In this document: in pieces, positions 3,369 through 36,662 of the stretch | Layout of the letters: each line of letters begins with the position of its first letter | How positions within the stretch are numbered: the first letter of the stretch is position 1 | NCBI RefSeq assembly: GCF_000299035.1 | Contig: NZ_JH921518.1 | Span: 656,439 to 720,438 of the forward strand | DNA from: Bacillus bingmayongensis | GTDB taxonomy: Bacteria > Bacillota > Bacilli > Bacillales > Bacillaceae_G | Length of the DNA: 64,000 bases | Direction: 5' to 3' | Notes under the pieces: model-generated | Databases searched by the model: none | Seen by the model: only the letters and a program-made list of their open reading frames with translations | Told to the model about the DNA's origin: nothing | Position numbers and translations under genes: made by a program

Positions 3369-4385
3369 TTATTGTTGTTCTGTTTTCCTTATAATAATTT
3401 GATTATTCTCTACCGTAACCGCTACATAATCATTCTCTTCTAATCCAAGCTGATTCACAGCTTCATCTGGCAGTTCTACAGCCATAAATCGCTCCGTTAA
3501 CACGACTTGACTATATGTTTCATTTTGCGGTACTGATAAAATTGCCTTATCTTCATGAATAAAACGAAGAGGTGGTACTCCTACTTCTTTTACAGTTCGC
3601 CAATTTTTTCGAATAAAAGGTACCAACCATAGTAAGCTTATCAAAATTATAACAAGTCCAATCCATAAATTACTTTGTCCTTGTAATTCAGCAATCGAAA
3701 TGGTATCATCAGTTCCTTCACCACTCGTTAATTGGATCGTAGTTGCAATACAATTATTCAATGCATGAACAGCAATATTCATCCATATATTTTTCGTTTT
3801 TATGTAAAGAAGACACATCACAACGCCGAATATAAAAGCACCAACAATATCAAAATGTCCTAAACCAAAAATAAGCGAAGACACAATCACAGCTCGTTTT
3901 ATTCCCCACTTAAACGCCATACGCTGTAAGAAGAAACCTCGAAAAATAACTTCTTCCATAATAGGTGCAAAAATACACGCTGAAATGAAACTGAATATCT
4001 GTGTGTAAATACTGCTCATATCAATTGCACCATTATCATTCAACATATCTACTAGAAAATCAGGAAAAATATGTGCTAATATGTAAAATTGAATAAAAGA
4101 GACACCGAATGAAAAAATCATTCCCATTGCAGTTGCAACTATAATTAACTTCCAATTTAATCGTGACGATTTATCAAAGAAACTAGTAAATATGATATTA
4201 TTTTTTTGTGTTTTTATATATAGCCATAATAGTGGAAATACAAAAAACACCGAAACTTGCAATACTACATCCATAACAATGTCTGAAGCTCCTACAAAAG
4301 CTAACGGTAGCACTGTTACTAACATACCTAAAATCATCCATGCAAAAAAACTACGAAACCGTATACGTGAAAATGCGTACTGAAT
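3369..4385 (-). CDS. CPBP-family intramembrane protease with C-terminal AbrB-like domain, probable ATT start
   Basis: A polytopic membrane protein of the CPBP (CAAX protease and bacteriocin-processing, Abi) family. The metal/catalytic motifs are visible: EEVIFRGFF, then FGLGHFD, then HALNN. After the last membrane segment there is a cytoplasmic tail ending ELPDEAVNQLGLEENDYVAV, which looks like an AbrB/SpoVT swapped-hairpin DNA-binding fold. The only well-placed ribosome site (TTGGAGGTG) is followed six bases later by ATT (4383-4385), giving 338 residues. The ATG at 4433 would extend the protein by 16 residues into sequence next to the symporter fragment and has only a weak AGGAAG. The start is therefore unsure. 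Confidence 0.75.
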   Translation of the reverse strand: MQYAFSRIRFRSFFAWMILGMLVTVLPLAFVGASDIVMDVVLQVSVFFVFPLLWLYIKTQKNNIIFTSFFDKSSRLNWKLIIVATAMGMIFSFGVSFIQFYILAHIFPDFLVDMLNDNGAIDMSSIYTQIFSFISACIFAPIMEEVIFRGFFLQRMAFKWGIKRAVIVSSLIFGLGHFDIVGAFIFGVVMCLLYIKTKNIWMNIAVHALNNCIATTIQLTSGEGTDDTISIAELQGQSNLWIGLVIILISLLWLVPFIRKNWRTVKEVGVPPLRFIHEDKAILSVPQNETYSQVVLTERFMAVELPDEAVNQLGLEENDYVAVTVENNQIIIRKTEQQ

Positions 4386-4506
4386 AAAAAACACCTCCAA
4401 GATGATATATTTACATTGTAATATGAATATCATTAAAATTCTTCCTATTTTTCTCAGTTCACTTGCAACTACTATGCCTATTAAAATATATAATAAGAAA
4501 TCTACT

Positions 4507-5490
4507 TTTGAAATTTTCTCAGTTTTAATTACAGTTAGTTTCGGACTAGTTTTTAACGCTGTACAAGCTAATGCCGTAACTTCTGCATTCGACGGAGCTT
4601 TTCATATTGATTCAAAAATCGTTGGGATTTCATTAGCTGTACTATTATCTGTCGTTATCTTCGGCGGTGTAAAACGAATTGCACGCGTCGTAGAAATGAT
4701 TGTACCAATTATGGCGATTATTTACGTGGCAGTTGCATTATTTGTTGTCGTGACAAATATTACATTAATTCCAGAAATGATAAAAGAAATTTTAGCGCAT
4801 GCATTTGGTATAAAAGAAGTTGCTGGTGGTAGCTTCGGTGCAGCAGTTTTACTCGGTGTTAAACGTGGTTTATTCTCCAATGAAGCTGGTATGGGTAATG
4901 CACCAAACGCAGCAGCGACTGCTAACGTAACACACCCTGTTAAACAAGGTTTCATTCAAACACTTGGTGTCTTTACAGATACATTATTAATATGTAGCTG
5001 TACTGCTTTTATTATCCTTTTATCAGACGTCCACGCTGGAACCGATTTAAATGGGATTCAGTTAACACAAGAAGCGTTAAAAACGCATATTGGTCCTTGG
5101 GCTCCACTCTTTGTCGCAGTGGCAATCTTCTTATTTGCTTTCAGTTCTCTAATCGGAAATTACTACTATGGCGAAACAAATATTGAGTTCTTAAATGGAA
5201 GTAAAACAACACTTATGATTTATCGTATCGCTGTAATTGGTATGGTATTCCTAGGTTCTGTGGCAACAATTCAAGTTGTCTGGGATTTAGCAGACCTATT
5301 TATGGACGTTATGGCAATCTTCAACTTAGTTACAATTATTTTCTTAAGCAAATACGCATTTGCTGCACTTCGAGACTATATGAAGCAAAAAGAAGCTGGA
5401 CAAGATCCTGTCTTCTACGCTGACAGCATACCTGGTTTAGAAGATACAGAATGCTGGGATCGTGAAAAAACAGAAGAAAAAGTTGGTTAA
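4507..5490 (+). pseudogene. 5'-truncated alanine/sodium symporter (AGCS family)
   Basis: Similarity to AGCS amino-acid:sodium symporters begins abruptly at FEIFSVLITVSFGLVFN and runs to the normal C-terminus, about 325 residues; intact family members are roughly 470-490, so about the first 140 residues (first membrane segments and the GTGNIAG sodium-site motif) are absent. The preceding 100 bases encode nothing like the family and carry no ribosome site. The GLFSNEAGMGNAPNAAA signature is intact. The gene keeps its own terminator. I infer a gene fragment moved by rearrangement, not a working transporter. Confidence 0.75.
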
Positions 5491-5573
5491 GGAAAATCCC
5501 CGCTTGCTGTGGGGATTTTTTCTATTTCATAGTATCGTTTCCAAAGGTGCTCCGTCTTCAATAACTCAGCCAT
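5487..5573 (-). pseudogene. Stub of an ABC transporter ATPase gene
   Basis: The ATG at 5571-5573 overlaps the regulator's stop codon (TGATG), the normal translational coupling of a YtrA-type operon. The stub reads MAELLKTEHLWKRY, a typical ABC ATPase N-terminus, but after about 14 codons the similarity ends near 5530. The frame then runs through the reverse complement of the symporter's terminator and stops at 5487. The Walker A motif and everything after it are gone. This marks one edge of a deletion or insertion. Confidence 0.7.
5493..5524 (+). terminator. Terminator of the symporter fragment
   Basis: AATCCCC (5495-5501) pairs with GGGGATT (5511-5517), followed by a run of T. It lies right after the symporter stop codon. 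Confidence 0.8.
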
Positions 5574-5950
5574 CAGTTCCCCTCCCTTTTCTCTTCCAAT
5601 GAGGAACGAAAAATTGAAAGAATCTCCTTTTCTGAAAACCCTAAATTGTCCATTCCGTTTATAAAAGAATGAAGCAATTCTTTGGCCATATCTTTGCGCA
5701 GCTCCATAATTTTCTCTCCTTCGCTCGTTACATATCTCCCCATTCCTCTACGTGTTACAACGATACCATCTCGCTCTAGCTCTTGAAATGTACGCTGGAT
5801 TGTATTTGGATTTACTTGTAACTCACTTGCTAATTCACGTACAGAGGGAATTTTGTCACCAGGTGATAAATGACCTATTACAATTTCTTTTTTTACGTAT
5901 TCCATAACTTGAATATAAATCGGTATGTTAGGAGAAAATTCAATTTTCAT
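5573..5950 (-). CDS. GntR-family regulator, YtrA subfamily
   Basis: 125 residues: an N-terminal winged helix (PIYIQVMEYVKKEIVIGHL, then PSVRELASELQVNPNTIQRT) and a short two-helix dimerisation tail, which is the YtrA layout. Such regulators sit first in operons with ABC transporters and repress them. The start has a strong AAAAGGAGGGG site. Immediately upstream is a perfect 15-bp inverted repeat that is surely its operator. The ABC gene expected downstream survives only as a stub, so the regulator may now control just itself. Confidence 0.85.
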   Translation of the reverse strand: MKIEFSPNIPIYIQVMEYVKKEIVIGHLSPGDKIPSVRELASELQVNPNTIQRTFQELERDGIVVTRRGMGRYVTSEGEKIMELRKDMAKELLHSFINGMDNLGFSEKEILSIFRSSLEEKREGN

Positions 5951-5964
5951 TTCTCCCCTCCTTT

Positions 5965-6000
5965 TGTCTCAGTGTACTAGTTAAATAGTACACTGAGACA
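5965..6000. promoter_or_regulatory. YtrA-type operator, 15-bp perfect inverted repeat
   Basis: TGTCTCAGTGTACTA (5965-5979), six bases GTTAAA, then its exact reverse complement (5986-6000). The AGTGTA...TACACT core is the kind of site bound by YtrA-type GntR regulators in B. subtilis. It lies 15 bases upstream of the regulator start codon, implying autoregulation. Confidence 0.75.
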
Positions 6001-6035
6001 AAAAAATATGTAAATACTTGTAATCTAAAATGTGA

Positions 6036-6074
6036 GAAAAAGGCAGTGTAGCGAGAGCTACACTGCCTTTTATT
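6036..6074 (-). terminator. Terminator of the acyl-CoA dehydrogenase operon
   Basis: AAAAGGCAGTGTAGC and GCTACACTGCCTTTT form a perfect 15-bp stem with a GAGA tetraloop, flanked by A and T runs. Confidence 0.85.
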
Positions 6075-6077
6075 CTT

Positions 6078-7295
6078 CTATTTCGTTATCACTTCTGCCT
6101 CATTTTCTTCAAAAGGCCACTTCGGTAACATATTACGAAGTTCCTTATCAGAACGATAACCAAGTGCGTATTCCGCTTGCATAATCGTATGAATTTCACG
6201 TGTTCCTTCGTAAATAACTGGAGCTTTTGCATTTCGTAAGTATCGTTCTACTGGAAATTCATTTGAATATCCATATGCACCATGCACCTGTACTGCATCA
6301 TTTGCCGCTTCAAATGCAGCATCACAAGCAACCCATTTTGCTAAAGACGTTTCACGTGTATTACGCTTCCCTTTATTTTTTAGCCATCCTGCTTTATACA
6401 CTAATAGCCTTGATATTTCTAGATTCGCAGACATTTTTGCAATCATTTGTTGTACGAGCTGATGTTTTCCGATTTCTTTTCCAAATGTCTTACGCTCTTC
6501 ACAATATTTTACGCTCGCTTCTAAGCTTGCTTGAATAAGTCCACATGCTCCTGCCGCTACTGTAAAACGTCCATTATCCAGTGACGCCATTGCAATTTTG
6601 AATCCTTCTCCCTCTTCTCCAAGAAGGTTTGCCACTGGTACTTTTACATCATCTAAAAATACTTCACCTGTATTTCCAGCTCTGATACCAAGCTTGCCTT
6701 TTATCGCTTTTGTCGATACTCCTAGAAATGTTCGTTCTACAATAAAACAAGAAATACCTCGGTGCTTTAATTCCGGATTTGTTTTCGCAAATATTAAGAA
6801 ATGATCTGCAACATCACATAACGAAATCCATGTTTTCGATCCATTTAATACGTAGTAATCGCCTTGTTTTACCGCTGTTGTTTGCATAGCAACGACATCT
6901 GATCCTGCATTTGGTTCCGTTAAACCAAACGCCCCAATCTTTTCACCTTTTGCTTGTGGAACAAGGAACTGTTGTTTTTGTTCTTCCGTTCCCCATTGAA
7001 GGAGTGTCATGCTATTTAATCCCGTATGTACAGATACAGCTGTACGAAAAGCTGTATCACCGCGTTCTAATTCCTCGCAAATGATAGCCAGCGTATTATA
7101 ATCCATGCCTACGCCACCATACTGCTCTGGAATACAAACGCCCATAAATTGCAGCTCTGCTAAACGCTTCAAGATTTTTTCTTCAAAATGCCCTTTTTCA
7201 TCCCATTCTTTAATGTACGGAATAATTTCATTATCTACAAAGGATCTCACTACTTTTCTAACACTTTGTTGTTCTTCTGTTAAAGAAAAATTCAT
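6078..7295 (-). CDS. Acyl-CoA dehydrogenase, glutaryl-CoA dehydrogenase-like
   Basis: A full-length 405-residue acyl-CoA dehydrogenase with the flavin motifs FGLTEPNAGSD and the catalytic Glu363 in YEGTREIH. Arg84 in FRTAVSVHTG aligns with Arg94 of glutaryl-CoA dehydrogenase, the residue that binds the substrate's distal carboxylate, and the His after Ile in the EIH motif is also typical of that enzyme. I infer oxidation and decarboxylation of glutaryl-CoA to crotonyl-CoA, though a different dicarboxylyl-CoA is possible. It is the last gene of an operon after the CoA-transferase, separated by 13 bases. Confidence 0.8.
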   Translation of the reverse strand: MNFSLTEEQQSVRKVVRSFVDNEIIPYIKEWDEKGHFEEKILKRLAELQFMGVCIPEQYGGVGMDYNTLAIICEELERGDTAFRTAVSVHTGLNSMTLLQWGTEEQKQQFLVPQAKGEKIGAFGLTEPNAGSDVVAMQTTAVKQGDYYVLNGSKTWISLCDVADHFLIFAKTNPELKHRGISCFIVERTFLGVSTKAIKGKLGIRAGNTGEVFLDDVKVPVANLLGEEGEGFKIAMASLDNGRFTVAAGACGLIQASLEASVKYCEERKTFGKEIGKHQLVQQMIAKMSANLEISRLLVYKAGWLKNKGKRNTRETSLAKWVACDAAFEAANDAVQVHGAYGYSNEFPVERYLRNAKAPVIYEGTREIHTIMQAEYALGYRSDKELRNMLPKWPFEENEAEVITK

Positions 7296-7308
7296 TTGTA
7301 ATACCTCC

Positions 7309-8496
7309 TTATATCCATTGATTTTTTTTCATTTCCATAATGCTTTCCTGAGAATAACCCAGATTTCTTAAAATTTTTTCTGTATGTTCACCGTGCAAGG
7401 GTGGATGTTTCTGCATCTGCACTGGTGTCTTTGTAAGATTTAATGGTGAACCTACAAGTTTAAGGTTTTCAATTGTCGGATGTTCCATATGAATTGTCAT
7501 ATCTCTCGCCACTGCCTGCTCTGTCTCTAACGCTTCTTTCACATTAAGAATTGGTCCATTTGGAATCCCTGCTTCATCCAAAAGTTGTTTCCATTCTTCT
7601 TTCTTTTTCTTCTTCATTTCATTTGCAATAATATTTACGAGCTCATCTTTATACTGAAGGCGACCTGCATTTGTTTTATAACGTTCTAAACGGGATAAGT
7701 CTTGTCTACCAAGCAACACACAAAACTTATAAAACTGTTCGTCATTTCCAACCGCAACAACAAGATCCCCATCTTCCGCCTTAAATACTTGGTACGGAAC
7801 AATATTCGGATGCTGGTTTCCAAGTCTCTCTGGCAATTCTCCTGTACACAAATAATTACTCGCTACATTTACTAATGCCGCTAATTGTGAATCAAATAAA
7901 GAAATATCAATTTCTTGCCCTTCTCCCGTCCTATTTCGGTGCTGCAGGGCGGCTAAAATCCCGATACACGTAAAAAGACCTGTGAGTACATCTGAAATTG
8001 CAACACCTACTTTGGCAGGCTCTTCATCCCTTCCTCCTGTTATACTCATAAGCCCACTCATCGCTTGAATCATATAATCATAACCTGGCAGATATGAAGC
8101 AGGACCCTTTTGGCCAAAACCACTAATAGAAGCTAGAATAATATCTTCCTTCACCTCTTGTAACACTTCAAAACCAAGACCCATTCTCTCTAGTGTTCCC
8201 AGCTTGAAATTTTGCACAACGATATCAGCATGAGAAACAAGCTTTTTCAAAACATCCTTTCCCATTTCTGATTTTAAATTTAATGTAATAGATTCTTTAT
8301 TACGATTTGCACAAAGAAAATATGCACTTTCTCCTCCGGCAAAAGGTGGCCCCCACCCTCTTGTATCATCACCATTTCCTACATTCTCAACTTTTATTAC
8401 CTCGGCCCCTAAATCACCGAGAATCATCGTACAAAAAGGACCGGCAAGAACCCTAGATAAATCAATAATTTTGATTCCTTGTAATGCTCCTTCCAC
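7309..8496 (-). CDS. Class III (CaiB/BaiF) CoA-transferase
   Basis: 395 residues with the family pattern: LSRVLAGPFCTMILGDLGAEVIKVE at the N-terminus, the RNKESITLNL strand, and Asp140 in LPGYDYMIQA, equivalent to the catalytic aspartate that forms the acyl-anhydride. The family moves CoA between carboxylic acids. Beside a glutaryl-CoA-dehydrogenase-like gene, the likely reaction is glutarate plus succinyl-CoA to glutaryl-CoA plus succinate, as in the mammalian succinate-glutarate enzyme (inference). It is preceded by an intercistronic hairpin that may lower its expression relative to the aminotransferase. Confidence 0.8.
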   Translation of the reverse strand: MEGALQGIKIIDLSRVLAGPFCTMILGDLGAEVIKVENVGNGDDTRGWGPPFAGGESAYFLCANRNKESITLNLKSEMGKDVLKKLVSHADIVVQNFKLGTLERMGLGFEVLQEVKEDIILASISGFGQKGPASYLPGYDYMIQAMSGLMSITGGRDEEPAKVGVAISDVLTGLFTCIGILAALQHRNRTGEGQEIDISLFDSQLAALVNVASNYLCTGELPERLGNQHPNIVPYQVFKAEDGDLVVAVGNDEQFYKFCVLLGRQDLSRLERYKTNAGRLQYKDELVNIIANEMKKKKKEEWKQLLDEAGIPNGPILNVKEALETEQAVARDMTIHMEHPTIENLKLVGSPLNLTKTPVQMQKHPPLHGEHTEKILRNLGYSQESIMEMKKNQWI

Positions 8497-8511
8497 TCCT
8501 TATCCTCCTAT

Positions 8512-8568
8512 AGTAAAAACCAGTAAAACCATCGAGAAAGGAAGGTGACATGGTGGTTTTACTGGTTT
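8512..8568 (-). terminator. Intercistronic hairpin, possible attenuator
   Basis: A perfect 15-bp stem (8517-8531 with 8554-8568) with a 22-base loop lies between the aminotransferase and CoA-transferase genes. On the transcribed strand it is followed by TTTTTA. It looks like a partial terminator or mRNA stabiliser within the operon. Confidence 0.6.
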
Positions 8569-8595
8569 GTATTTACAAGTTATTGTATAAAAAAA

Positions 8596-9978
<1,383 letters not shown>

Positions 9979-11472
9979 CTATTTCACTCCTATAGTTTTT
10001 TTATTTGCAAACCAACCAATTGGTTCTACTTCTAGATTTATATTAATCTGCTTAATTTCTTGGAATTCCTCTAAACCAAACGTTCCTAAACTACGACCGA
10101 TACCACTTTGTTTATATCCGCCCCAAGGCGCTTCGTTGTATGTTGGATGATAACTATTAATCCACGTAATTCCTGCGCGAAGCTTGCGGATTACACGCAT
10201 CGCTTTTGCACCATCAACTGTGAATACACCTCCAGCTAAGCCGTAATCTGTACCGTTCGCTAGTTCAATTGCTTCCTGTTCACTCTTAAATTTTTGGATA
10301 ACTACAACAGGACCAAAAATTTCTTCCTGCACAATACGCATATCAGGTTTTACATTGACAAAGACCGTTGGTTCAATAAAGAAACCATCACCTTTCCCAT
10401 CCGCCAGTATACGCTTTCCTCCGCAAGCAATTTCTGCTCCTTCATCTTTCCCAATCTCAATATAGCGTAATACTTTTTCCATATGCTCTTGACTTACAAG
10501 CGGCCCCATCTCTGATTCTGAGTTATTACCAGGGCCAACATTAATTTGTTTTGCCCGTTCTACGAAACGAGTAACAAATTTATCGTAAACGCTTTCTTCA
10601 ACAAGAATTCTTGACCCTGCTGAACATACTTGACCAGTACCTGCATAAATACCAAATAGGGCATAATCGACAGCCGTTTCAAAATCTGCATCTGCAAAAA
10701 TAATATTTGGTGATTTCCCTCCAAGTTCTAGCGAAATTTTTTTCATATTATCTGCCGCTGTTCTCATAATGTGCTTTCCAGTCTTCGTTCCACCTGTAAA
10801 AGAAATCATATCTACTTTATCGCTCGCCGCAATTTCATTTCCTACTATTGGCCCTGCACCCATCACCATATTCGCAACACCTGTTGGTAACTCTACTTTT
10901 TCACAGATTTCGAATAACTTTGTTGCAGTGATTGGTGTAACTTCAGAAGGTTTAAATACAATCGTGTTTCCAGCCGCTAAAGCAGGAGCAATTTTCCACA
11001 CACTCATAAGTAACGGATAATTCCAAGGAACAATTAATCCACAAACACCAACTGGCTCTCTAACTACCATAGCTTGCATTGGATCAGCTACATGATATGT
11101 TTGTCCATCAGGTTTTGTAATAAGCCCTGCATAATAACGAAAACAGGCCGCCGCATCTCCAACATCACCTTCTGCCTCACGATACGTTTTCCCGTTATCC
11201 ATCGTTTCAAGGCGAGTAAGTTCTTCCATATTTTTATCAATCTCATCTGCTATTTTAAATAAATAAGATGCTCTTTCAGCAGCGGATGTTTCTGACCAAA
11301 TTCCGCTATCAAAAGTCGCTCTTGCCACTTCTATCGCGTATTTCACATCCTCAATTGTCCCTTCAGGTGCATATGCGATAACCTTGCCATTCGCAGGGTT
11401 AATAATAGGTCTTTTCTCTTGATTACTAGAATCTCTCCATTCACCGTTTAGATACATTTTTAAATCTAGCAC
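9979..11472 (-). CDS. NAD-dependent aldehyde dehydrogenase, aminoaldehyde/betaine-aldehyde type
   Basis: 497 residues from a GTG start ten bases after AAGGGGG. It has the catalytic Cys283 (GQVCSAG), Glu249 (LELGGKSPN) and the FTGG cofactor motif. The C-terminal block WINSYHPTYNEAPWGGYKQSG and general similarity to GbsA-type betaine aldehyde dehydrogenases place it with omega-aminoaldehyde dehydrogenases. With PatA next in the operon, the natural substrate is 4-aminobutanal or 5-aminopentanal. It is the first gene behind a sigma-54 promoter at 11513-11530. An ATG five codons downstream is too far from the ribosome site. Confidence 0.8.
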   Translation of the reverse strand: MLDLKMYLNGEWRDSSNQEKRPIINPANGKVIAYAPEGTIEDVKYAIEVARATFDSGIWSETSAAERASYLFKIADEIDKNMEELTRLETMDNGKTYREAEGDVGDAAACFRYYAGLITKPDGQTYHVADPMQAMVVREPVGVCGLIVPWNYPLLMSVWKIAPALAAGNTIVFKPSEVTPITATKLFEICEKVELPTGVANMVMGAGPIVGNEIAASDKVDMISFTGGTKTGKHIMRTAADNMKKISLELGGKSPNIIFADADFETAVDYALFGIYAGTGQVCSAGSRILVEESVYDKFVTRFVERAKQINVGPGNNSESEMGPLVSQEHMEKVLRYIEIGKDEGAEIACGGKRILADGKGDGFFIEPTVFVNVKPDMRIVQEEIFGPVVVIQKFKSEQEAIELANGTDYGLAGGVFTVDGAKAMRVIRKLRAGITWINSYHPTYNEAPWGGYKQSGIGRSLGTFGLEEFQEIKQININLEVEPIGWFANKKTIGVK

Positions 11473-11512
11473 TGTATATAATCCCCCTTTGTCAATCGTT
11501 CATATATTATAT

Positions 11513-11530
11513 AAGCAATAATTGTGCCAA
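11513..11530 (-). promoter_or_regulatory. Sigma-54 (-24/-12) promoter of the aldehyde dehydrogenase operon
   Basis: TTGGCAC-AATTA-TTGCTT on the minus strand; this is the sigma-54 consensus TGGCAC-N5-TTGC with exact spacing. It lies about 45 bases upstream of the GTG start, with an activator palindrome about 85 bases further upstream. Confidence 0.9.
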
Positions 11531-11588
11531 TATTTTAAATACGAAGGAATCCTACAAAAACTGACTATTCCCTCCAGTAGAACATATG

Positions 11589-11612
11589 AACTTATGCATT
11601 TTTGCATAAGTT
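11589..11612. promoter_or_regulatory. Upstream activating palindrome for the sigma-54 activator
   Basis: AACTTATGCA (11589-11598), TTTT, TGCATAAGTT (11603-11612): a perfect 10-bp inverted repeat. A further half site (GCATAA) lies about 15 bases away. The same TTATGCA-N4-TGCAT core occurs upstream of the glutamate dehydrogenase promoter. Confidence 0.75.
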
Positions 11613-11639
11613 ATTACATTTCGCATAATTACGGATTCA

Positions 11640-11674
11640 AAAAAAGGAGCAGCTTATGTAAGCTACTCCTTTTA
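11640..11674 (-). terminator. Terminator of the sigma-54 activator gene
   Basis: AAAAAGGAGCAGCTTA and TAAGCTACTCCTTTTA form a long stem with one mismatch and a TG loop. It lies immediately after the activator stop codon. Confidence 0.75.
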
Positions 11675-11677
11675 CTT

Positions 11678-13807
11678 TTAAAAATATGGAATTGTATCGA
11701 TTGCCATTTCTTTTTCATTCACGATTTTTTGATATTTACGACTAACAGAAGATTGGCTAATTCCAAGGGCTTTCGCTGCCTTCGTCGTTGTTTTATACTG
11801 CTTCATTGCGAGTAAGATTAATTGCTCTTCCACAGAATGTAATGCTTCATGTAAGGGTAACACTCTTGTAATAACCGGTTTTGACTTTTTAAAATCATAT
11901 CCAGGAGTTAGGAATTTACTAACAAATTCAGCTTCAATAACTGGATCATCTGCCGATACTACTAAGCGTTCAATCATATTCTGTAACTCTCGTACATTTC
12001 CTGGCCATGAATAAAACTCTAGTAAGTTAAGTGCATCAGGGGTTAAGTGATAGTTTCTATTATATTTTTCATTTAACTGCTGTAAGAAATGAAATGCGAG
12101 TACTGGAACATCTTCCATTCGTTCTCTAAGCGGCGGAACTTGCAATGGAATTACATTTAAGCGATAAAATAAATCTTCACGGAATGTACCAGCTTCCACC
12201 ATTTTTTCAAGACTTTTATTCGTAGCAGCAATAATTTGAACGTTTATTTTTGTAGGTATCGTACTTCCAATCGGAATTACTTCTTGTTCTTGTAACACCC
12301 TAAGTAATTTCACTTGTAAATGTAAAGGCATTTCTCCAATCTCATCTAAAAATAATATGCCTTGATCAGCTCTCTTAAAGTATCCTTCTTTTCCATTTTT
12401 GTCAGCGCCAGTAAAAGCACCCTTCGTATAACCAAATAATTCACTTTCTAATAATGATTCTGGAATCGCACCGCAATTTAATTTTAAAAATGGCTTCGCA
12501 GAACGACTTCCAAGTTGATGAATCGCTTGTGCGATGACTTCCTTTCCAACGCCTGATTCTCCAGAAATAAGAACATTTGAAGAAAAATCAGCTATTTTTT
12601 TTGCTTGATTAATAATTTGCTCCATTTTCGGACTACAATAAATAAGTTTCTTAAGAAAGCGATCTTTATTTTTAAAGCTGTCTAACTCTTTCTTATATTG
12701 TTCAGATATCTTTTTTATCTCATGCAATTCCGTCTTTAATCGCGTTGCTTCTGTAATATCTCTTGAGGCAATAATAATACGATGAAGCTCTCCATTTTCA
12801 TTAAACACAGGATTTCCAACGGCTAATATCTTTCTACCGTTTTTTGTCTCTTGTACAATCGATACCTTTTTTTGTTGTTCCAACACTAATCGCGTAACGG
12901 ATGGACTAAATAACCCTTTTTTCTCTAAGTCTAAAAGATTTTTTCCTAAAAGATCCTTCAAATCTCCTCCCCAAAAATCATTGATAACGGTTTCACTATA
13001 ACGGATTAATTCCCCTTTATGATTGACTACTAATATTTCATCATAAATGCTAGATAAAATTGCATGTAAATCTTTATTTAAATCCTTTATATATTCAATT
13101 TCCATAGCCATATCCTCAACCATCGGTAAATCTTGCACAATAATAACCATTCCTTCAATTTTTTGATCGAAGCTTGGGATTGGACTGTAGTCAACTAATA
13201 CTCCCATCTCATTTGTTATTTGCAATTGATTTAAAATCGTTTTTCCCGTTGCAAATACATTGCTAATATGTTCCCCATTAAAAATCTGTTCTGCTGGTAC
13301 ATTCAGTACTTTTTCAGGAGTAGATTTAATCATCTTCAAACCAGATTCATTACAATTTACAATTTTCTTTTCACGATCTACTACAAAAATCCCCATTGGA
13401 ATAGACGTTAAAATGATTTTCAGTATATCGACACTTTTATTTTCTTGCTTAAATAGTTCTGCAAAAACATCCTCTCTTCTTATGTATCCTGTTAACTCTC
13501 CTATTTCATTTTTCACTATGGCAATAGGTGCCCCGATAATTTGAAATAGAGCTGTTAAGGAAATATTTTTGCTAAGATGACATATTGTATCTAGTGAAAC
13601 AGCATTTGAAAGTAATGCTTGGGTAGTTAGTCCCTCACTTCTTGATAGCAGATCCTTCACATGGACGTATGCAAATAATTGATCTTCTCTTTTTAAAAAC
13701 AGAAAAGATTCTTTTATATTTTTAACATCTATATTCCATTCCTTTTCAAGTTGATCGATAGGTACAGAAACAATAGGTCTAATTTTTTTATGGGCAATGG
13801 AAAACAT
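11678..13807 (-). CDS. Sigma-54-dependent transcriptional activator (enhancer-binding protein)
   Basis: 709 residues. An N-terminal sensory region of about 120 residues resembles a CBS pair; two PAS-like domains follow (roughly 130-235 and 245-355), then a AAA+ domain with Walker A GESGVGKE at 416-423, the sigma-54 contact loop GAFTGA at 463-468 and Walker B ILFLDEIGEM near 486, and a Fis-type helix-turn-helix at the C-terminus (TKAAKALGISQSSVSRK). It lies between three sigma-54 promoters and so almost certainly drives the diamine transporter, glutamate dehydrogenase and aldehyde dehydrogenase operons. The ligand is unknown. It has its own terminator. Confidence 0.93.
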   Translation of the reverse strand: MFSIAHKKIRPIVSVPIDQLEKEWNIDVKNIKESFLFLKREDQLFAYVHVKDLLSRSEGLTTQALLSNAVSLDTICHLSKNISLTALFQIIGAPIAIVKNEIGELTGYIRREDVFAELFKQENKSVDILKIILTSIPMGIFVVDREKKIVNCNESGLKMIKSTPEKVLNVPAEQIFNGEHISNVFATGKTILNQLQITNEMGVLVDYSPIPSFDQKIEGMVIIVQDLPMVEDMAMEIEYIKDLNKDLHAILSSIYDEILVVNHKGELIRYSETVINDFWGGDLKDLLGKNLLDLEKKGLFSPSVTRLVLEQQKKVSIVQETKNGRKILAVGNPVFNENGELHRIIIASRDITEATRLKTELHEIKKISEQYKKELDSFKNKDRFLKKLIYCSPKMEQIINQAKKIADFSSNVLISGESGVGKEVIAQAIHQLGSRSAKPFLKLNCGAIPESLLESELFGYTKGAFTGADKNGKEGYFKRADQGILFLDEIGEMPLHLQVKLLRVLQEQEVIPIGSTIPTKINVQIIAATNKSLEKMVEAGTFREDLFYRLNVIPLQVPPLRERMEDVPVLAFHFLQQLNEKYNRNYHLTPDALNLLEFYSWPGNVRELQNMIERLVVSADDPVIEAEFVSKFLTPGYDFKKSKPVITRVLPLHEALHSVEEQLILLAMKQYKTTTKAAKALGISQSSVSRKYQKIVNEKEMAIDTIPYF

Positions 13808-13907
13808 TCTGCTAATCCTCCTTTGAACTACTTAACTTGTATTGTAACATTAAAAACAGATTTTTTTAATTAATCTGATAATATACATTTTTTACTTACT
13901 TTAATAA

Positions 13908-13938
13908 AAAAAGGAAGATGAATGATTCCATCTTCCTA
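13908..13938 (-). terminator. Terminator of the glutamate dehydrogenase operon
   Basis: GGAAGATG (13913-13920) pairs with CATCTTCC (13929-13936); on the minus strand the stem is followed by a run of seven T. Confidence 0.8.
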
Positions 13939-13949
13939 ATTGTCTATAA

Positions 13950-14198
13950 TTAATCACTACCACTAATTAAAATATCTTCCTGAATATAAGCTAATACCAT
14001 ACCTGGAATTACTTTATCTCCTGCTTCTACTTCTAAAGATTGTACTTCTCCGCTACATCCCATTTTGATTACTTCCATCTTTCCATTCATATCTTTAATA
14101 GCAAATAGCGGTTCCCATTCATAAATTCGAGAGTCCTTATCAATAGACACTTTTTCAACCGTTCCATAGCATGGACTTGTAACTATCTCATAATACAA
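13950..14198 (-). CDS. Small biotinyl/lipoyl-like domain protein
   Basis: An 82-residue protein that is almost entirely one barrel-sandwich hybrid domain. The beta-turn that normally carries the modified lysine reads EVIKMGCSG (Lys45), similar to the biotin AMKM turn, and is followed by the usual GEVQSLEVEAGDKVIPGMVL half-barrel. It has no partner carboxylase or dehydrogenase nearby. It is the last gene of the glutamate dehydrogenase operon, so a role in the same catabolism is likely, but whether the lysine is modified is unknown. Confidence 0.65.
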   Translation of the reverse strand: MYYEIVTSPCYGTVEKVSIDKDSRIYEWEPLFAIKDMNGKMEVIKMGCSGEVQSLEVEAGDKVIPGMVLAYIQEDILISGSD

Positions 14199-14225
14199 AA
14201 TAAATCATTCCCTTCTCTTATTCTA

Positions 14226-14516
14226 TTAATATTGTTCCGCCAACATTTGTGACTGAAGAATCATGTGAAAAAAACTTTGAAAATCTTCTACATCTTCTAC
14301 TTCAATCCCTAACTTAGGTGCCCAATATTGCTTTAGTTCAATATCTTCTTGACTTAATAGAATCATTCTTCCATTTTGAATAGATGTGACCATTGCTTTT
14401 CCAAAAAACTGCTGTGAATAAGCAACTGCTAGATCATATCGATGATGATTCGACACAATACAGTAATAACCAACTGGTTGTTTTTCAATTTCTTCTAATA
14501 GAATATCAAGTTTCAT
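14226..14516 (-). CDS. DUF3055 / SAV0927-family protein
   Basis: 96 residues. The pattern RYDLAVAYSQQFFGKAMV, then QNGRMILLSQED, matches what I know of the DUF3055 (SAV0927) family, a small Firmicutes fold without known activity. It lies 18 bases after glutamate dehydrogenase and 27 bases before the lipoyl-like gene, so the three are one operon. No membrane segment or catalytic motif can be named. Confidence 0.6.
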   Translation of the reverse strand: MKLDILLEEIEKQPVGYYCIVSNHHRYDLAVAYSQQFFGKAMVTSIQNGRMILLSQEDIELKQYWAPKLGIEVEDVEDFQSFFHMILQSQMLAEQY

Positions 14517-14534
14517 TTGATTCCTCCTTTTAAC

Positions 14535-15815
14535 TTAAAAATGCAACCAACCTCTTAGACGCGATGCCTCTACAATTTTACGAACTCCTTCTATATAAGC
14601 AGCGATTTTCATATTTACCCCAAACCGTTTTGAAGTGTTGAATACATTAGAAAAGCTAGATGTAATTTTTTCTTTTAAACATTGGTCAACATATTGCTCT
14701 GTCCAATAATATCCTTGGTTATTTTGGCACCACTCAAAATAAGAAACAATAACCCCTCCAGAGTTCGCTAAAATATCTGGGACAACTAAAATGTCTTTCT
14801 CTTCTAACATCGCTATTGCCTCTTTTGTTGTCGGACCATTTGCGGCCTCAATGACAATCTTACACCCAAGCCTTTCTGCATTATGTTTCGTAATCACTCC
14901 TCCAATTGCTGCCGGAATGAGTACATCACATTCCTTTTCTAACAACTCTTGGTTAGAGATTGTTTTACTAAAAAGGTTCGATACGACACCAAAAGAATCT
15001 CGATTTTCTAGTAAATAAGGAACATCTAAACCGTCTGGATTATAAATACCACCTAAAGCATCAGATACTCCTACTACTTTCACACCAATATCATATAAAT
15101 ATTTTGCTAAATAGCTTCCAACGTTTCCAAACCCTTGAATGATTACTCGCATATTTTGAAGCTGAATATGTTTTAGCTCACTAACTAATTGAAGCGTGTA
15201 AAACACTCCTTTAGACGTAGCTGTTTCCCGTCCTTGTGATCCTCCTAGCATTAATGGTTTTCCGGTAATAAAGCCTGGAGAGTCAAATTCTCTAATATGA
15301 TCATATTCATCCAGCATCCAAGCCATAATTTGCGCATTTGTATACATATCAGGTGCTGGAATATCTTTAGTAGGTCCAACAATTTGGCTTACCGCTCTTA
15401 CATAACCACGGCTAAGTAACTCTAATTCTCTGAAACTCATCTCCTGCGGATTACAAATAATCCCGCCCTTCGCACCTCCATATGGAAGTCCTGTTACTCC
15501 ACATTTCAAGCTCATCCAACCAGCAAGCGCCTTTACTTCCTCTGCTGTAACATCTGGATGAAACCGAATGCCACCTTTTGTTGGTCCTGCTGCATCATTA
15601 TGCTGGGCACGATACCCTTGAAATACCTTTGTTCTTCCATCATCCATTCGAACAGGAATACTTACTTCTAAAAAACGCATCGGCTTTTTCAGAAAATCGA
15701 ATACTTCCTCTGGATAACGCAAAGCCTGGAGTGCTTCTTTTAATATGGCCTGAAATTCCTCTAAAGGATTTTCAAGTTCAACTGTAGTTGTATGTTTTTC
15801 TGATTGAATTGCCAC
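14535..15815 (-). CDS. NAD-specific glutamate dehydrogenase (RocG/GudB type)
   Basis: 426 residues from a GTG start after GAGGTG. The glutamate dehydrogenase motifs are clear: GGAKGGI with the catalytic Lys, the PAPDMYTNAQIMAWM loop and GFGNVGSY for NAD. It deaminates glutamate to 2-oxoglutarate, which recycles the acceptor needed by the nearby aminotransferase. The sigma-54 promoter and activator palindrome upstream show that this copy is a catabolic enzyme induced with the diamine genes, not the general housekeeping enzyme. Confidence 0.93.
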   Translation of the reverse strand: MAIQSEKHTTTVELENPLEEFQAILKEALQALRYPEEVFDFLKKPMRFLEVSIPVRMDDGRTKVFQGYRAQHNDAAGPTKGGIRFHPDVTAEEVKALAGWMSLKCGVTGLPYGGAKGGIICNPQEMSFRELELLSRGYVRAVSQIVGPTKDIPAPDMYTNAQIMAWMLDEYDHIREFDSPGFITGKPLMLGGSQGRETATSKGVFYTLQLVSELKHIQLQNMRVIIQGFGNVGSYLAKYLYDIGVKVVGVSDALGGIYNPDGLDVPYLLENRDSFGVVSNLFSKTISNQELLEKECDVLIPAAIGGVITKHNAERLGCKIVIEAANGPTTKEAIAMLEEKDILVVPDILANSGGVIVSYFEWCQNNQGYYWTEQYVDQCLKEKITSSFSNVFNTSKRFGVNMKIAAYIEGVRKIVEASRLRGWLHF

Positions 15816-15852
15816 GATAACACCTCATTTTTATATTTTTACTAATTGTATA

Positions 15853-15870
15853 AAGCAATAATCGTGCCAA
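15853..15870 (-). promoter_or_regulatory. Sigma-54 (-24/-12) promoter of the glutamate dehydrogenase operon
   Basis: TTGGCAC-GATTA-TTGCTT on the minus strand, nearly identical to the element upstream of the aldehyde dehydrogenase gene and with the same spacing. Confidence 0.9.
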
Positions 15871-15951
15871 TTGAAAATATCGTGATAATCGTATTGTTTC
15901 AGCCTTCTCACTTATATTTTTTCTTCCCTTCCTTATGAACAGTTGAATGAT

Positions 15952-15969
15952 TTATGCAACCTTGCATGA
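15952..15969. promoter_or_regulatory. Upstream activating palindrome of the glutamate dehydrogenase operon
   Basis: TTATGCA (15952-15958), ACCT, TGCATGA (15963-15969). It has the same core and the same 4-base gap as the site at 11589-11612 and lies about 100 bases upstream of the -12 element. Confidence 0.7.
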
Positions 15970-16023
15970 CTTTAAAATCTCCAAAATAAAAAACACCGGA
16001 TACATCCCAATGTTTTTGTTATT

Positions 16024-17373
16024 TTACATTTCCTGCACTTCTTCAAAATGCATTTGCGGAGGTGCTGAACGGAACATGTTTGTAATATATAGAAGATAAC
16101 CGATTCCAATAGCAGCCCAGCTAAGTCCAAGAATAAGTGAGTGAATATTGAGGTTGAACCAAAGTACAGCGACTGTCCCCGCCCCTAAGATAGGCATCAC
16201 TAAAAAATTAAAAAAGTCTTTTACTGTTTTATATCGTTTTTGCTTGATTACATAGTAAGAAATGACTGATAAATTAACAAATGTAAATGCAATAAGCGCT
16301 CCGAAGTTAATAAGGGAGGCTGCTGTTTCTAAATCTATGAACATGGCTGAGAGTGCAATAACTCCTACAAAAATAATGTTATATACTGGAGTTCGCAAAC
16401 GAGGATGAATGTATCCAAATATCTTTTGCGGGATTACATTATCTCGCCCCATTACATATAATAATCGCGATACACTTGTATGGGAAGCTAAGCCAGACGC
16501 CATTGTTCCCATAAATGTTCCTACCAAAAAGAAAGTTTGAAATAATTTTCCGCCAACGTATAGCGCAATTTCTGGAGCTGCTGATTCTTGATCTTTAAAT
16601 ACAGATGCATCTGGAAAAAAGGATTGTGTAAAGTACGTCGTAACAATGAATAGAATACCACCAATTAAAGCGGTAAGAAAAATTGCTCGAGGAATCGTTT
16701 TCTTTGCGTTTGGTGTTTCTTCTGAAAATGTAGTTACCGCATCAAAACCTAAAAATGAAAAACAAAGAATTGTGGCCCCTGCAACTAACGGTGATATTTG
16801 TATATCTGATTGGAAAAACGGCTGAATGGAAAAAACTTCTCCTGTTCCCTCTCCCGCTAATAAGCCTTTTATAACTAGAAAAACAAACACAGCCATTACT
16901 AGCACTTGAAATGTTACTAAGAACGTGTTGAAATTAGCAGTAACATTCACGCTAATAATATTTATAAGTGTAATCAGTAGAACAAAGCCAATGACCCATG
17001 CCCAGTCTGGAACACTTGGAAAAAGTGCTGACATATAAATTCTCGTTAATAGTGCGTTCACCATCGGTAGAAACAAATAATCCAATAACGCTGACCATCC
17101 AACAAGAAATCCAAGCCTTGCACTAATTGTCTTCTGTGTATACGTATAAGCAGATCCCGCGGTAGGAAAAACTTTTACCATTTTGCCGTAGCTTGCAGCT
17201 GTAAACAACATCCCTGCTAATGCAATAAGATAAGCTCCTGGAACATGCCCACCCGTTTTTTCAGAAACGATCCCAAATGTATCAAATCCCACCATTGGTG
17301 TCATATACCCAACGCCTAGCATAACAATTGACCAAAGTCCTAATGAACGTTTCAAACCAACTACTTTTCCCAC
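16024..17373 (-). CDS. puuP: Putrescine importer (PuuP-like APC-family permease)
   Basis: 449 residues with about 12 membrane segments. Blocks such as [65 protein letters not shown] and [21 protein letters not shown] correspond closely to what I know of E. coli PuuP. It would import putrescine, possibly cadaverine, by proton symport. It is a single gene with its own sigma-54-type promoter at 17503-17520 and a cre-like site between promoter and start codon. Confidence 0.85.
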
Positions 17374-17429
17374 CTATCATTCCTCCTACTTTCTCTATCT
17401 AATTTCCATGTAAAGTTTGATAACTAAAC

Positions 17430-17443
17430 AGAAAACGCTTTCA
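17430..17443. promoter_or_regulatory. CcpA cre-like site in the puuP leader
   Basis: AGAAAACGCTTTCA differs from the cre consensus TGAAAACGCTTTCA only at the first base. It lies downstream of the sigma-54 promoter, where bound CcpA could act as a roadblock. Confidence 0.6.
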
Positions 17444-17502
17444 ACAAACCGTATATGTTATATATCTCATTCCAAAACCTCCTTATTTGTTTTTAAATAT
17501 TC

Positions 17503-17520
17503 ATGCAATTTTCGAGCCAA
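17503..17520 (-). promoter_or_regulatory. Sigma-54-type promoter of puuP
   Basis: TTGGCTC-GAAAA-TTGCAT on the minus strand: one mismatch (A to T) from TGGCAC-N5-TTGCA with correct spacing. Confidence 0.75.
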
Positions 17521-17596
17521 AATTTCTGTTAAGTAAAAATCCATACGAAAAAGAATATATAGGTGTAGTAGTATGCTTATTAATCTTCATTTTTTT

Positions 17597-17632
17597 ATTC
17601 ATTTTGACATAAGTTATTCAATCTCACATACC
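17597..17632. promoter_or_regulatory. Degenerate activator site upstream of puuP
   Basis: The stretch around GACATAAGTTATT and CACATA parallels, with the same internal spacing, the GCATAAGTTATT and GCATAA half sites upstream of the aldehyde dehydrogenase gene. It is about 100 bases upstream of the -12 element. The rest of the 390-base gap between puuP and nrdF shows only AT-rich sequence and the nrdF terminator. Confidence 0.45.
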
Positions 17633-17719
17633 GCTAAATACAAATGATGTGAAATTTTAATCAATCAGGAAATAAAAAGACTATCATAAAATAATAACAT
17701 TATGTAAACTATTCATAAC

Positions 17720-17755
17720 AAAAAAAGCTGCCTTATATGAAAGACAGCTTTTTCA
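17720..17755 (-). terminator. Terminator of the nrd operon
   Basis: AAAAAGCTG and CAGCTTTTT arms around a short loop, followed by T residues on the minus strand. Confidence 0.75.
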
Positions 17756-17765
17756 ATCTTATCTA

Positions 17766-18734
17766 TTAAAAATTAAATACAAAATCATCGTCTGATAATT
17801 TTTCAACATTTGTTGCTTTTACATAACCATTCCCTTTTACAGAGAAGAAATCATGGTTTTTCGTATCTGTACGTAAACCGTTTAGTACGATTGGGTTAAT
17901 TTCTTCCTCTTCAAAGTGTGGTTCTAATCCTAAGTTCATAAGTCCCTTATTCGCATTGTAACGAACAAAGCGGTTTACATCTTCTACAAGACCAATGGAT
18001 GTATAAATTTCTTCTGTATATGCAGTTTCAATTTCATACAGTTCCATTAATAGCTCTTGTGTTTCTTTTTGCACTTCTTGTTGCTCTTCTGCAGAAAGTT
18101 CCGCGAAGATTTGTTGTGCTAAAATACCGACGAATACGCCGTGAATGCTTTCGTCGCGAATTATTAAGTTAATAATTTCACCACTTGCAGTCAATTTACC
18201 TTGTCCTGCTAAGTAAAGTGGATAGAAGAATCCACTATAGAACAAGTAACTTTCTAAGAACACACTCGCTACCATTGCCATATATAGCTCTTTTTTCGTT
18301 ACTTGTGGCTTTAATAAACGGCGATAGTACCCTGTAATAATACCTGCTTTCTTCTCAAGTAATGGATGGCTATCTACCCATTCAAAGATCTCATCAATTT
18401 CTTCTTCTGTTGCAAGTGTCGTGAAGATATGACTGTAACTCTTAGCGTGTACTTCTTCCATAGCACCCATGAAAGCTAGTACACTTTTCGCTTGTAAATT
18501 CTCAAGATGAACAAGTACAAGCGGCATCCCTTCGCCGCCCTGTTTTGTATCTAGAAGCGTTAAACCTCCTAGTACACGCTTATAAGCAATTTGCTCTTCT
18601 TTTGATAGTTGCACCCAAGTATTTTTGTCAGAAGATACCGCTATTTCTTCTTCTGTCCAAAACTGAGCGATGTTTTGCTTCCAAAACATTAAACTAAAAT
18701 CGTCTTCTTTTTTATTCCAGTTTACAGCGCGCAT
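17766..18734 (-). CDS. nrdF: Class Ib ribonucleotide reductase beta subunit NrdF
   Basis: 322 residues. The di-metal ligands are visible in the two EXXH motifs, EEVHAKSYSHIF and RDESIHGVF, with the radical tyrosine in the first (SYS). It carries the Mn(III)2 or Fe(III)2 tyrosyl radical that NrdE uses to reduce ribonucleoside diphosphates. It begins behind AAAAGGGG, 188 bases after nrdE; that gap contains strong palindromes. Confidence 0.97.
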   Translation of the reverse strand: MRAVNWNKKEDDFSLMFWKQNIAQFWTEEEIAVSSDKNTWVQLSKEEQIAYKRVLGGLTLLDTKQGGEGMPLVLVHLENLQAKSVLAFMGAMEEVHAKSYSHIFTTLATEEEIDEIFEWVDSHPLLEKKAGIITGYYRRLLKPQVTKKELYMAMVASVFLESYLFYSGFFYPLYLAGQGKLTASGEIINLIIRDESIHGVFVGILAQQIFAELSAEEQQEVQKETQELLMELYEIETAYTEEIYTSIGLVEDVNRFVRYNANKGLMNLGLEPHFEEEEINPIVLNGLRTDTKNHDFFSVKGNGYVKATNVEKLSDDDFVFNF

Positions 18735-36530: not shown

Positions 36531-36662
36531 CTCTTCCCCTTCTTTCCTCCAGTCAACTTTTTTTCTATTGGTAAATTATATGAAGGAAACCGAAAAATGT
36601 GTCCACTTTTTGCACTGATGCAAAACTTTTTAAATCCTCTCTCATCACTATATCTCCATTTC

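Follow-up and report, generated by a model that had tools for sequence, protein, structure and literature searches.

We describe here a cluster of nine genes, all on the minus strand between positions 6078 and 17373 of a 64,000-nucleotide stretch of Bacillus bingmayongensis DNA (contig NZ_JH921518.1, positions 656,439 to 720,438; hereafter the window), that is in our assessment likely to be a sigma-54 regulon for diamine catabolism with an added outlet through glutarate. Read from 5' to 3', the open reading frames (ORFs) encode a PuuP-like permease, a glutamate dehydrogenase (GDH), a SAV0927-like protein, a lipoyl-like protein, an enhancer-binding protein (EBP), an aldehyde dehydrogenase (ALDH), the aminotransferase PatA, a coenzyme A (CoA)-transferase and an acyl-CoA dehydrogenase (Table 1). 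In the proposed pathway, the PuuP-type importer would take up putrescine and/or cadaverine, PatA would transfer one amino group to 2-oxoglutarate, the ALDH would oxidize the aminoaldehyde to 4-aminobutyrate (GABA) or 5-aminovalerate, and GDH would turn glutamate into 2-oxoglutarate and ammonia. In the C5 branch, glutarate would come from GabT/GabD-type enzymes presumably encoded elsewhere in the genome, and the CoA-transferase and then the glutaryl-CoA-dehydrogenase-like enzyme would convert it to glutaryl-CoA and crotonyl-CoA. The EBP would bind palindromes 80-100 base pairs (bp) upstream of three -24/-12 promoters and, upon a signal from the pathway, activate the sigma-54 RNA polymerase.

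Related loci were collected by searching with the EBP, which returned 24 loci with 61-80% identity over nearly the whole protein, from Priestia, Neobacillus, Gottfriedia, Peribacillus, Robertmurraya, Scopulibacillus, Thalassobacillus and other genera. The lipoyl-like gene is found in all 24, GDH, ALDH and PatA in 22 each, the SAV0927-like gene in 21, a GabT-like gene in 20, the PuuP-like permease in 19, a GabD-like gene in 18, and the CoA-transferase plus dehydrogenase pair in 10. Absences may be overcounted, because some loci stop at contig ends (e.g., L004), and locus L021 was scored by the script as having GabT- and GabD-like genes, though they are arranged differently there.

The nine same-strand genes, the three -24/-12 sites and the single EBP described in the original prediction were all recovered by ORF calling, family matches and a motif scan. 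The sites ahead of the GDH and ALDH genes are the only perfect -24/-12 matches on both strands of the window, and remain so if the sixth base may be either C or T, against about 0.06 expected by chance (our own arithmetic, assuming equal base frequencies). The permease site is weaker than the other two, and what speaks for it is conservation: of 24 permease genes examined in the relatives, 19 have a -24/-12 match with no more than one mismatch in the 400 bp upstream, as does that of the window, and 5 have none. Looser matches (two mismatches or fewer) carry no evidential weight, because the window holds 33 against 26.2 expected by chance and 33 was reached in 7 of 100 shuffles. A nine-codon ORF with a good ribosome site, which could be a leader peptide or due to chance, is located at 17430-17470 on the minus strand, between the permease -24/-12 site and the start codon.

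That these promoters belong to one sigma-54/EBP regulon, as had been proposed, is supported by a palindrome common to them. Its sequence, TTATGCA-N4-TGCATAA, was taken from the ALDH promoter of the window. With up to two mismatches it occurs three times window-wide (at ALDH, at GDH and at 36608), against 0.88 expected. When three mismatches are allowed, it is present at 52 of 66 promoters, comprising all three in the window and 49 of the 63 corresponding promoters of relatives; by target, and with the window's three counted in, this amounts to 22/23 for ALDH, 17/20 for the permease and 13/23 for GDH. The mean best upstream site over the 66 promoters has 2.56 mismatches compared to 5.42 in dinucleotide shuffles, and a weaker second copy is frequently seen at a distance of 19-20 bp. 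Helical phasing between palindrome and promoter was considered and discarded, as no clean 10.5-bp period emerged (R 0.38 at 10.5 and 0.63 at 11.5, n=52). Matches to the palindrome plus TGGCAY were also seen away from the cluster, at L032 and L034 in genomes G011 and G006.

Another 27 perfect -24/-12 sites in the relatives' loci had been intended as a negative control. The palindrome (three mismatches or fewer) accompanies 22 of them, because those 22 precede further likely regulon genes, and is lacking at the other five. Six precede a ureohydrolase gene divergent from the permease; nine precede a second permease of the amino acid-polyamine-organocation (APC) family (assigned from the translation in L008, L009, L013 and L014 and from position in five); four precede an NhaC-like gene (family checked for L018 alone), which might exchange amines or protons as part of the regulon; and three precede cluster genes or an aminotransferase (L004, L011, L021). 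In several divergent gene pairs one palindrome is read from both sides, so that the 22/27 count overlaps the 52/66 count. Two ureohydrolases that were tested scored above the TIGR01230 agmatinase cut-off and below that of PRK02190, and the best solved relative of one of them is a guanidinobutyrase; for the ureohydrolase copies away from the cluster, no -24/-12 site with a palindrome was found. Since the palindrome marks ureohydrolase, second permease and NhaC-like genes, the sequence comparison suggests that a single EBP probably governs an agmatine/diamine regulon, the outer members of which differ from species to species.

Assignment of the first steps was based on family models, solved structures and identities to 10 Escherichia coli reference proteins. 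Both the PuuP-like importer and the PatA enzyme of the original prediction held up. The permease is 61% identical to E. coli PuuP over 432 residues, compared to 22% for GabP and 27% over 56 residues for CadB; it reached no NCBIfam model cut-off. PatA is 62% identical to its E. coli namesake and scores 784.5 bits on PRK11522 (cut-off 612) and 657.4 bits on TIGR03372, just under the cut-off of 658.65; its five best solved chains are all putrescine aminotransferases. The ALDH is 40% identical to E. coli PuuC and 37% to PatD. GDH reached no NCBIfam equivalog cut-off, and its proposed part as the cluster's own glutamate-recycling enzyme, which would regenerate 2-oxoglutarate, is reasonable as an interpretation.

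The same prediction had called the pathway complete, which it is not within the window: tblastn found no GabT- or GabD-type gene that could carry out the two following steps, either in the cluster or elsewhere in the 64 kilobases (kb). It had also overlooked a glutarate/glutaryl-CoA branch, to which the last two genes point. These genes would add a C5 outlet, from cadaverine through glutarate to crotonyl-CoA. In all 10 related loci with the pair, GabT- and GabD-like genes stand between PatA and the pair (GabT-like 42-45% identical to E. coli GabT in five loci; GabD-like 54-56% to GabD in four). In the window, the CoA-transferase gene starts 99 bp after PatA and the GabT/GabD place is empty. 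A ureohydrolase-like gene is likewise absent from the 64 kb. The best solved chain for the CoA-transferase is a succinate-hydroxymethylglutarate CoA-transferase. The second solved match of the dehydrogenase is a glutaryl-CoA dehydrogenase (331.7 bits), which we take to be of the Desulfococcus type. Additionally, comparison of a fragment of the window protein with solved structures revealed an arginine aligned with that of Burkholderia glutaryl-CoA dehydrogenases and absent in the acyl-CoA dehydrogenases 2dvl and 4u83; this arginine of glutaryl-CoA dehydrogenases holds the far carboxylate. Among the matches listed for glutaryl-CoA dehydrogenases on plasmids, there was no useful named full-length one.

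Orthologues of the dehydrogenase occur at seven places in 6 of 17 genomes, and a CoA-transferase gene adjoins in 7/7. Some of these pairs have other surroundings. At L115:5201-11983 and L116:955-9449 the pair is near genes for a saccharopine-dehydrogenase-family protein, a thiamine pyrophosphate (TPP) enzyme and an aldehyde dehydrogenase, and at L117:3365-10496 genes for a TPP enzyme and an aldehyde dehydrogenase lie near the pair, which there is equipped with a perfect -24/-12 site of its own and has an EBP gene in its neighbourhood. In other Bacillaceae, these contexts may represent a second route from lysine to glutarate.

Between PatA and the CoA-transferase gene of the window lies a hairpin with a 15-bp stem followed by TTTTTA. 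Its folding z score is -4.26 for 8505-8590 and only -1.00 with other flanks. A hairpin precedes the CoA-transferase gene in all 10 relatives with the pair and keeps the same stem base, GCCAGT/ACTGGC (ACCAGT/ACTGGT in the window). Single folds, run on 7 of the 11 hairpins, gave z scores of -4.0 to -7.1 for six relatives, and RNAalifold on 9 of the 11 kept 20 pairs, seven with two-sided change. We searched 15 genomes with R1, a model built on the 11 hairpins, and scored 150 first-look candidates in each. The model also matched inside the cluster of genome G026 and about 32 nucleotides before the CoA-transferase gene of G004, outside the sigma-54 cluster (E 2.9e-5), and it gave weaker matches elsewhere. 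R1 reported no hairpin before the pair in G005, G010 or G011 or before the second G026 pair, misses that prove little at 150 first-look candidates per genome. Rfam returned no match up to E 0.5 within 4000-18000. A mere PatA terminator was rejected as an explanation, since the hairpin precedes the CoA-transferase gene whatever gene comes before it, including in G004. A strict terminator scan requiring a T-rich tail found the hairpin only in the window and in L003, and a simple terminator is disfavoured in Gottfriedia-type loci because the tail is not T-rich there. Because the ribosome site follows directly, transcription that starts at the ALDH promoter would need to continue through the hairpin. 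We propose that the hairpin may act as an attenuator, and the last two genes may be under extra control.

Several results weigh against a single diamine regulon with a glutarate outlet. Because the hairpin lies between PatA and the CoA-transferase, the last two genes are possibly not transcribed from the ALDH promoter. On its best NCBIfam model, NF052585, the CoA-transferase scores 420.6 bits and does not reach the cut-off of 750; the dehydrogenase scores 383.7 bits on NF045552 (Desulfo type glutaryl-CoA dehydrogenase; cut-off 470, also not reached) and 385.3 bits on an acryloyl-CoA reductase model, and the solved protein that it matches best over the full length is another kind of acyl-CoA dehydrogenase (340.5 bits). 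As both enzymes fall under the cut-offs of their best models, their glutarate specificity is putative. In the 64 kb, tblastn located no GabT- or GabD-like genes, the Gab queries matching only PatA and ALDH. The ALDH itself is closest to betaine aldehyde dehydrogenases, both among solved chains and by its best NCBIfam model, whose cut-off it does not reach. The palindrome was not found at 10 of 23 GDH promoters, nine of them in Gottfriedia-type loci, or at 3 of 20 permease promoters. Finally, counts across loci are not independent, because the loci share ancestry and many are close kin.

We regard it as possible, though on balance unlikely, that the regulon serves only agmatine and putrescine (C4) and that the CoA-transferase/dehydrogenase pair is a separate downstream module for glutarate from lysine, which the hairpin would place under separate control. 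This hairpin stands before the pair in the window, in 10 relatives and in G004, where the pair is outside the sigma-54 cluster. The transaminase step occurs without the pair in 12 of the 24 loci, six loci have in the regulon a ureohydrolase gene whose product would supply putrescine, and in G026 a second pair has a perfect -24/-12 site of its own but lacks the palindrome. However, the in-cluster pair lies behind GabT and GabD, in the same orientation, in 10/10 loci, and between hairpin and start codon we saw neither a palindrome-bearing -24/-12 site nor any other promoter. PatA-type enzymes, moreover, accept cadaverine, according to the available part of the Priestia megaterium study (PMC8274714).

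A different substrate for the regulon, such as agmatine, ornithine, spermidine, lysine or another amine or basic amino acid, with the likeness to PuuP and PatA misleading, seems improbable to us. APC permeases and class III transaminases do vary in substrate, second permeases appear to join the regulon in nine loci, and the likeness of the ALDH to betaine aldehyde dehydrogenases fits such a reading as well. Nevertheless, the proteins for uptake and the first step are more than 60% identical to PuuP and PatA, far above the other E. coli proteins tried. There is likewise little in favour of the three -24/-12 sites answering to different activators, with the neighbouring EBP controlling the ALDH operon only: in the window, the ALDH promoter has the strongest palindrome and the permease promoter a weaker one, and the GDH promoters that lack it come, with one exception, from one closely related group, but the palindrome is present at all three window promoters and at 16 of the relatives' 19 permease promoters.

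In the candidate activator of the diamine regulon, two PAS stretches are followed by an AAA+ domain and, at the C terminus, a helix-turn-helix (HTH) domain; the GAFTGA motif was read in its translation. For the window protein, the N-terminal 120 residues gave no Pfam match at the limit applied. The CBS model was matched (best 1e-4) by 4 of 22 EBP orthologues and not by the window protein; the alignment comprised 22 of 25 available sequences, L012, L015 and L017 being left out. A profile of the N-terminal region matches six CBS-domain structures weakly (E 0.05-0.51), and in the predicted model (mean predicted local distance difference test score, pLDDT, 78) its order of strands and helices fits a CBS pair. 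The region may be a degenerate CBS pair; such pairs frequently bind adenosine compounds. Among 38 EBP matches in seven related genomes that lack an intact EBP orthologue, none starts before residue 87. The regulator is decayed in at least one relative: G014 (C6:9884-10858, L073) carries a broken EBP gene with two in-frame stops, in pieces that are 83% and 80% identical.

Directly before the EBP gene in all 24 loci except L020, where 1.4 kb intervene, stands the lipoyl-like gene. Its 82-residue product passes PF00364 narrowly (23.5 bits, cut-off 22.1) and also passes PRK06748 (132.3 bits, cut-off 111), and its predicted model is confidently all-beta (pLDDT 91.5). A lipoylated carrier was rejected, because no lysine is invariant in the 18 aligned sequences and the attachment lysine is not conserved; the alignment omits L020, which had a stop codon in range. 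Scopulibacillus genome G010 has five lipoyl-like copies (L051, L056-L059): two in the cluster, one beside GDH and one beside PatA, a third about 14 kb from these beside another GDH, and two elsewhere. It is conceivable, if doubtful, that both small proteins, whose genes lie between those of GDH and the EBP, are not enzymes but regulators gating GDH or the EBP, so that the regulon would answer to glutamate/2-oxoglutarate flux as well as to diamine, with the hairpin separately metering the glutarate branch.

Table 1. Features of the cluster in the window and of regulon genes in related loci. Positions without a locus prefix refer to the window.
Feature	Position	Strand	Basis or remark
PuuP-like APC permease, putative diamine importer	16024..17373	-	AA_permease families; 61% to E. 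coli PuuP
GDH	14535..15815	-	ELFV_dehydrog
SAV0927-like protein, 96 residues	14226..14516	-	PF11256, 64.5 bits
Lipoyl-fold protein without conserved attachment lysine, 82 residues	13950..14198	-	PF00364, PRK06748
Sigma-54 EBP (possible CBS pair, PAS, PAS, AAA+, HTH)	11678..13807	-	PF00158, PF18024
ALDH, putative PatD role	9979..11472	-	PF00171
PatA, putrescine/cadaverine aminotransferase	8596..9978	-	PRK11522 above cut-off; 62% to E. coli PatA
Family III CoA-transferase, putative succinate-glutarate type	7309..8496	-	best NCBIfam model, best solved chain
Acyl-CoA dehydrogenase, putative glutaryl-CoA dehydrogenase	6078..7295	-	family matches and shared arginine
Permease -24/-12 site	17504..17519	-	TGGCTCGAAAATTGCA, one mismatch; conserved in relatives
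GDH -24/-12 site	15854..15869	-	perfect
ALDH-PatA -24/-12 site	11514..11529	-	perfect
Proposed EBP site of ALDH	11592..11609	.	perfect; starts 80 bp upstream of -24 element
Proposed EBP site of GDH	15952..15969	.	one mismatch; 100 bp upstream of -24 element
Proposed EBP site of permease	17595..17612	.	three mismatches; 93 bp upstream of -24; equalled by 5/200 shuffles
Conserved terminator-like hairpin before CoA-transferase	8512..8568	-	folding, comparison with relatives
Terminator-like site after last gene	6038..6071	.	perfect-arm palindrome (sequence listed on + strand)
Terminator-like site between permease and GDH	15989..16017	-	
Terminator-like site between lipoyl-like gene and EBP	13912..13937	-	
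Ureohydrolase (agmatinase/guanidinobutyrase-like), own -24/-12 and palindrome	L003:3254-4207, L014:4655-5617; same place in L002, L006, L008, L010		
NhaC-like genes, perfect -24/-12 and weak palindrome (3 mismatches)	L018:18261-19700; at 18258 in L019, 18253 in L024, 8096 in L021		

Next to the cluster, three further observations were made in the window. An ORF at 4402-5490 (+) resembles, by eye, an amino acid carrier protein without its beginning and is perhaps a gene remnant. At 5490-5600 (-), also by eye, there is the start of an ABC transporter ATPase-like ORF that ends within a few codons at a terminator-like hairpin, and it is preceded by a short GntR-type regulator at 5573-5950. A plasmid origin of the window was dismissed, as no near match was found in the plasmid collection.

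Compared with characterized systems, the cluster appears to be of a familiar kind. The GabR regulon of Bacillus thuringiensis (gabT-gabR-gabD), as described in the available parts of two papers, likewise combines sigma-54, a PAS-containing EBP beside its targets, an amine-derived substrate and a repeat upstream of the promoter (PMC4279683, PMC4428206); unlike here, it concerns GABA rather than diamines and has a different EBP. The portion of the HD73 study available to us describes none of its eight listed EBPs with the present gene set, and it assigns to the sigma-54-dependent RocR operon HD73_0560-0562 a 'biotin carboxyl carrier protein', a hypothetical protein and an amino-acid permease (PMC4428206). 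That operon, in contrast, is associated with arginine, and its two small proteins may belong to the same families as those here. In E. coli, the PuuP, PatA and PatD genes are at three separate places, whereas here their counterparts form one cluster with a sigma-54 activator and GDH.

Closer in gene content is patDA of P. megaterium, the same gene pair, whose enzymes convert cadaverine to 5-aminovalerate and are 63% (PatA) and 38% (PatD) identical to those of E. coli, compared to 62% and 37% here; they were studied as enzymes, and the available text mentions no regulator (PMC8274714). The E. coli lysine/cadaverine route passes through glutarate, as would be expected here, but according to the accessible part of its description E. 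coli hydroxylates glutarate to 2-hydroxyglutarate (PMC6265302), where we would expect a CoA-transferase and a glutaryl-CoA-dehydrogenase-like enzyme to act. A general link between sigma-54 and amine catabolism is already in print, because a 2025 survey, in the sections available, names as sigma-54 targets, at the level of gene groups, glutamate dehydrogenase and arginase/agmatinase in Bacillota and 4-aminobutyrate and ornithine-type aminotransferases in Bacilli (PMC12316311). A description of a dedicated sigma-54 diamine activator was not found in the open literature, the search leaving subscription papers mostly aside. Judged from sequence, then, what would be new is the candidate activator and its predicted binding site.

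Diamine breakdown in Bacillaceae thereby gains a candidate for a sigma-54 activator of its own, together with the site to which that protein is predicted to bind. Because PatA and PatD enzymes of this type serve 5-aminovalerate production, a native sensor and drain for these compounds would also be of practical use.

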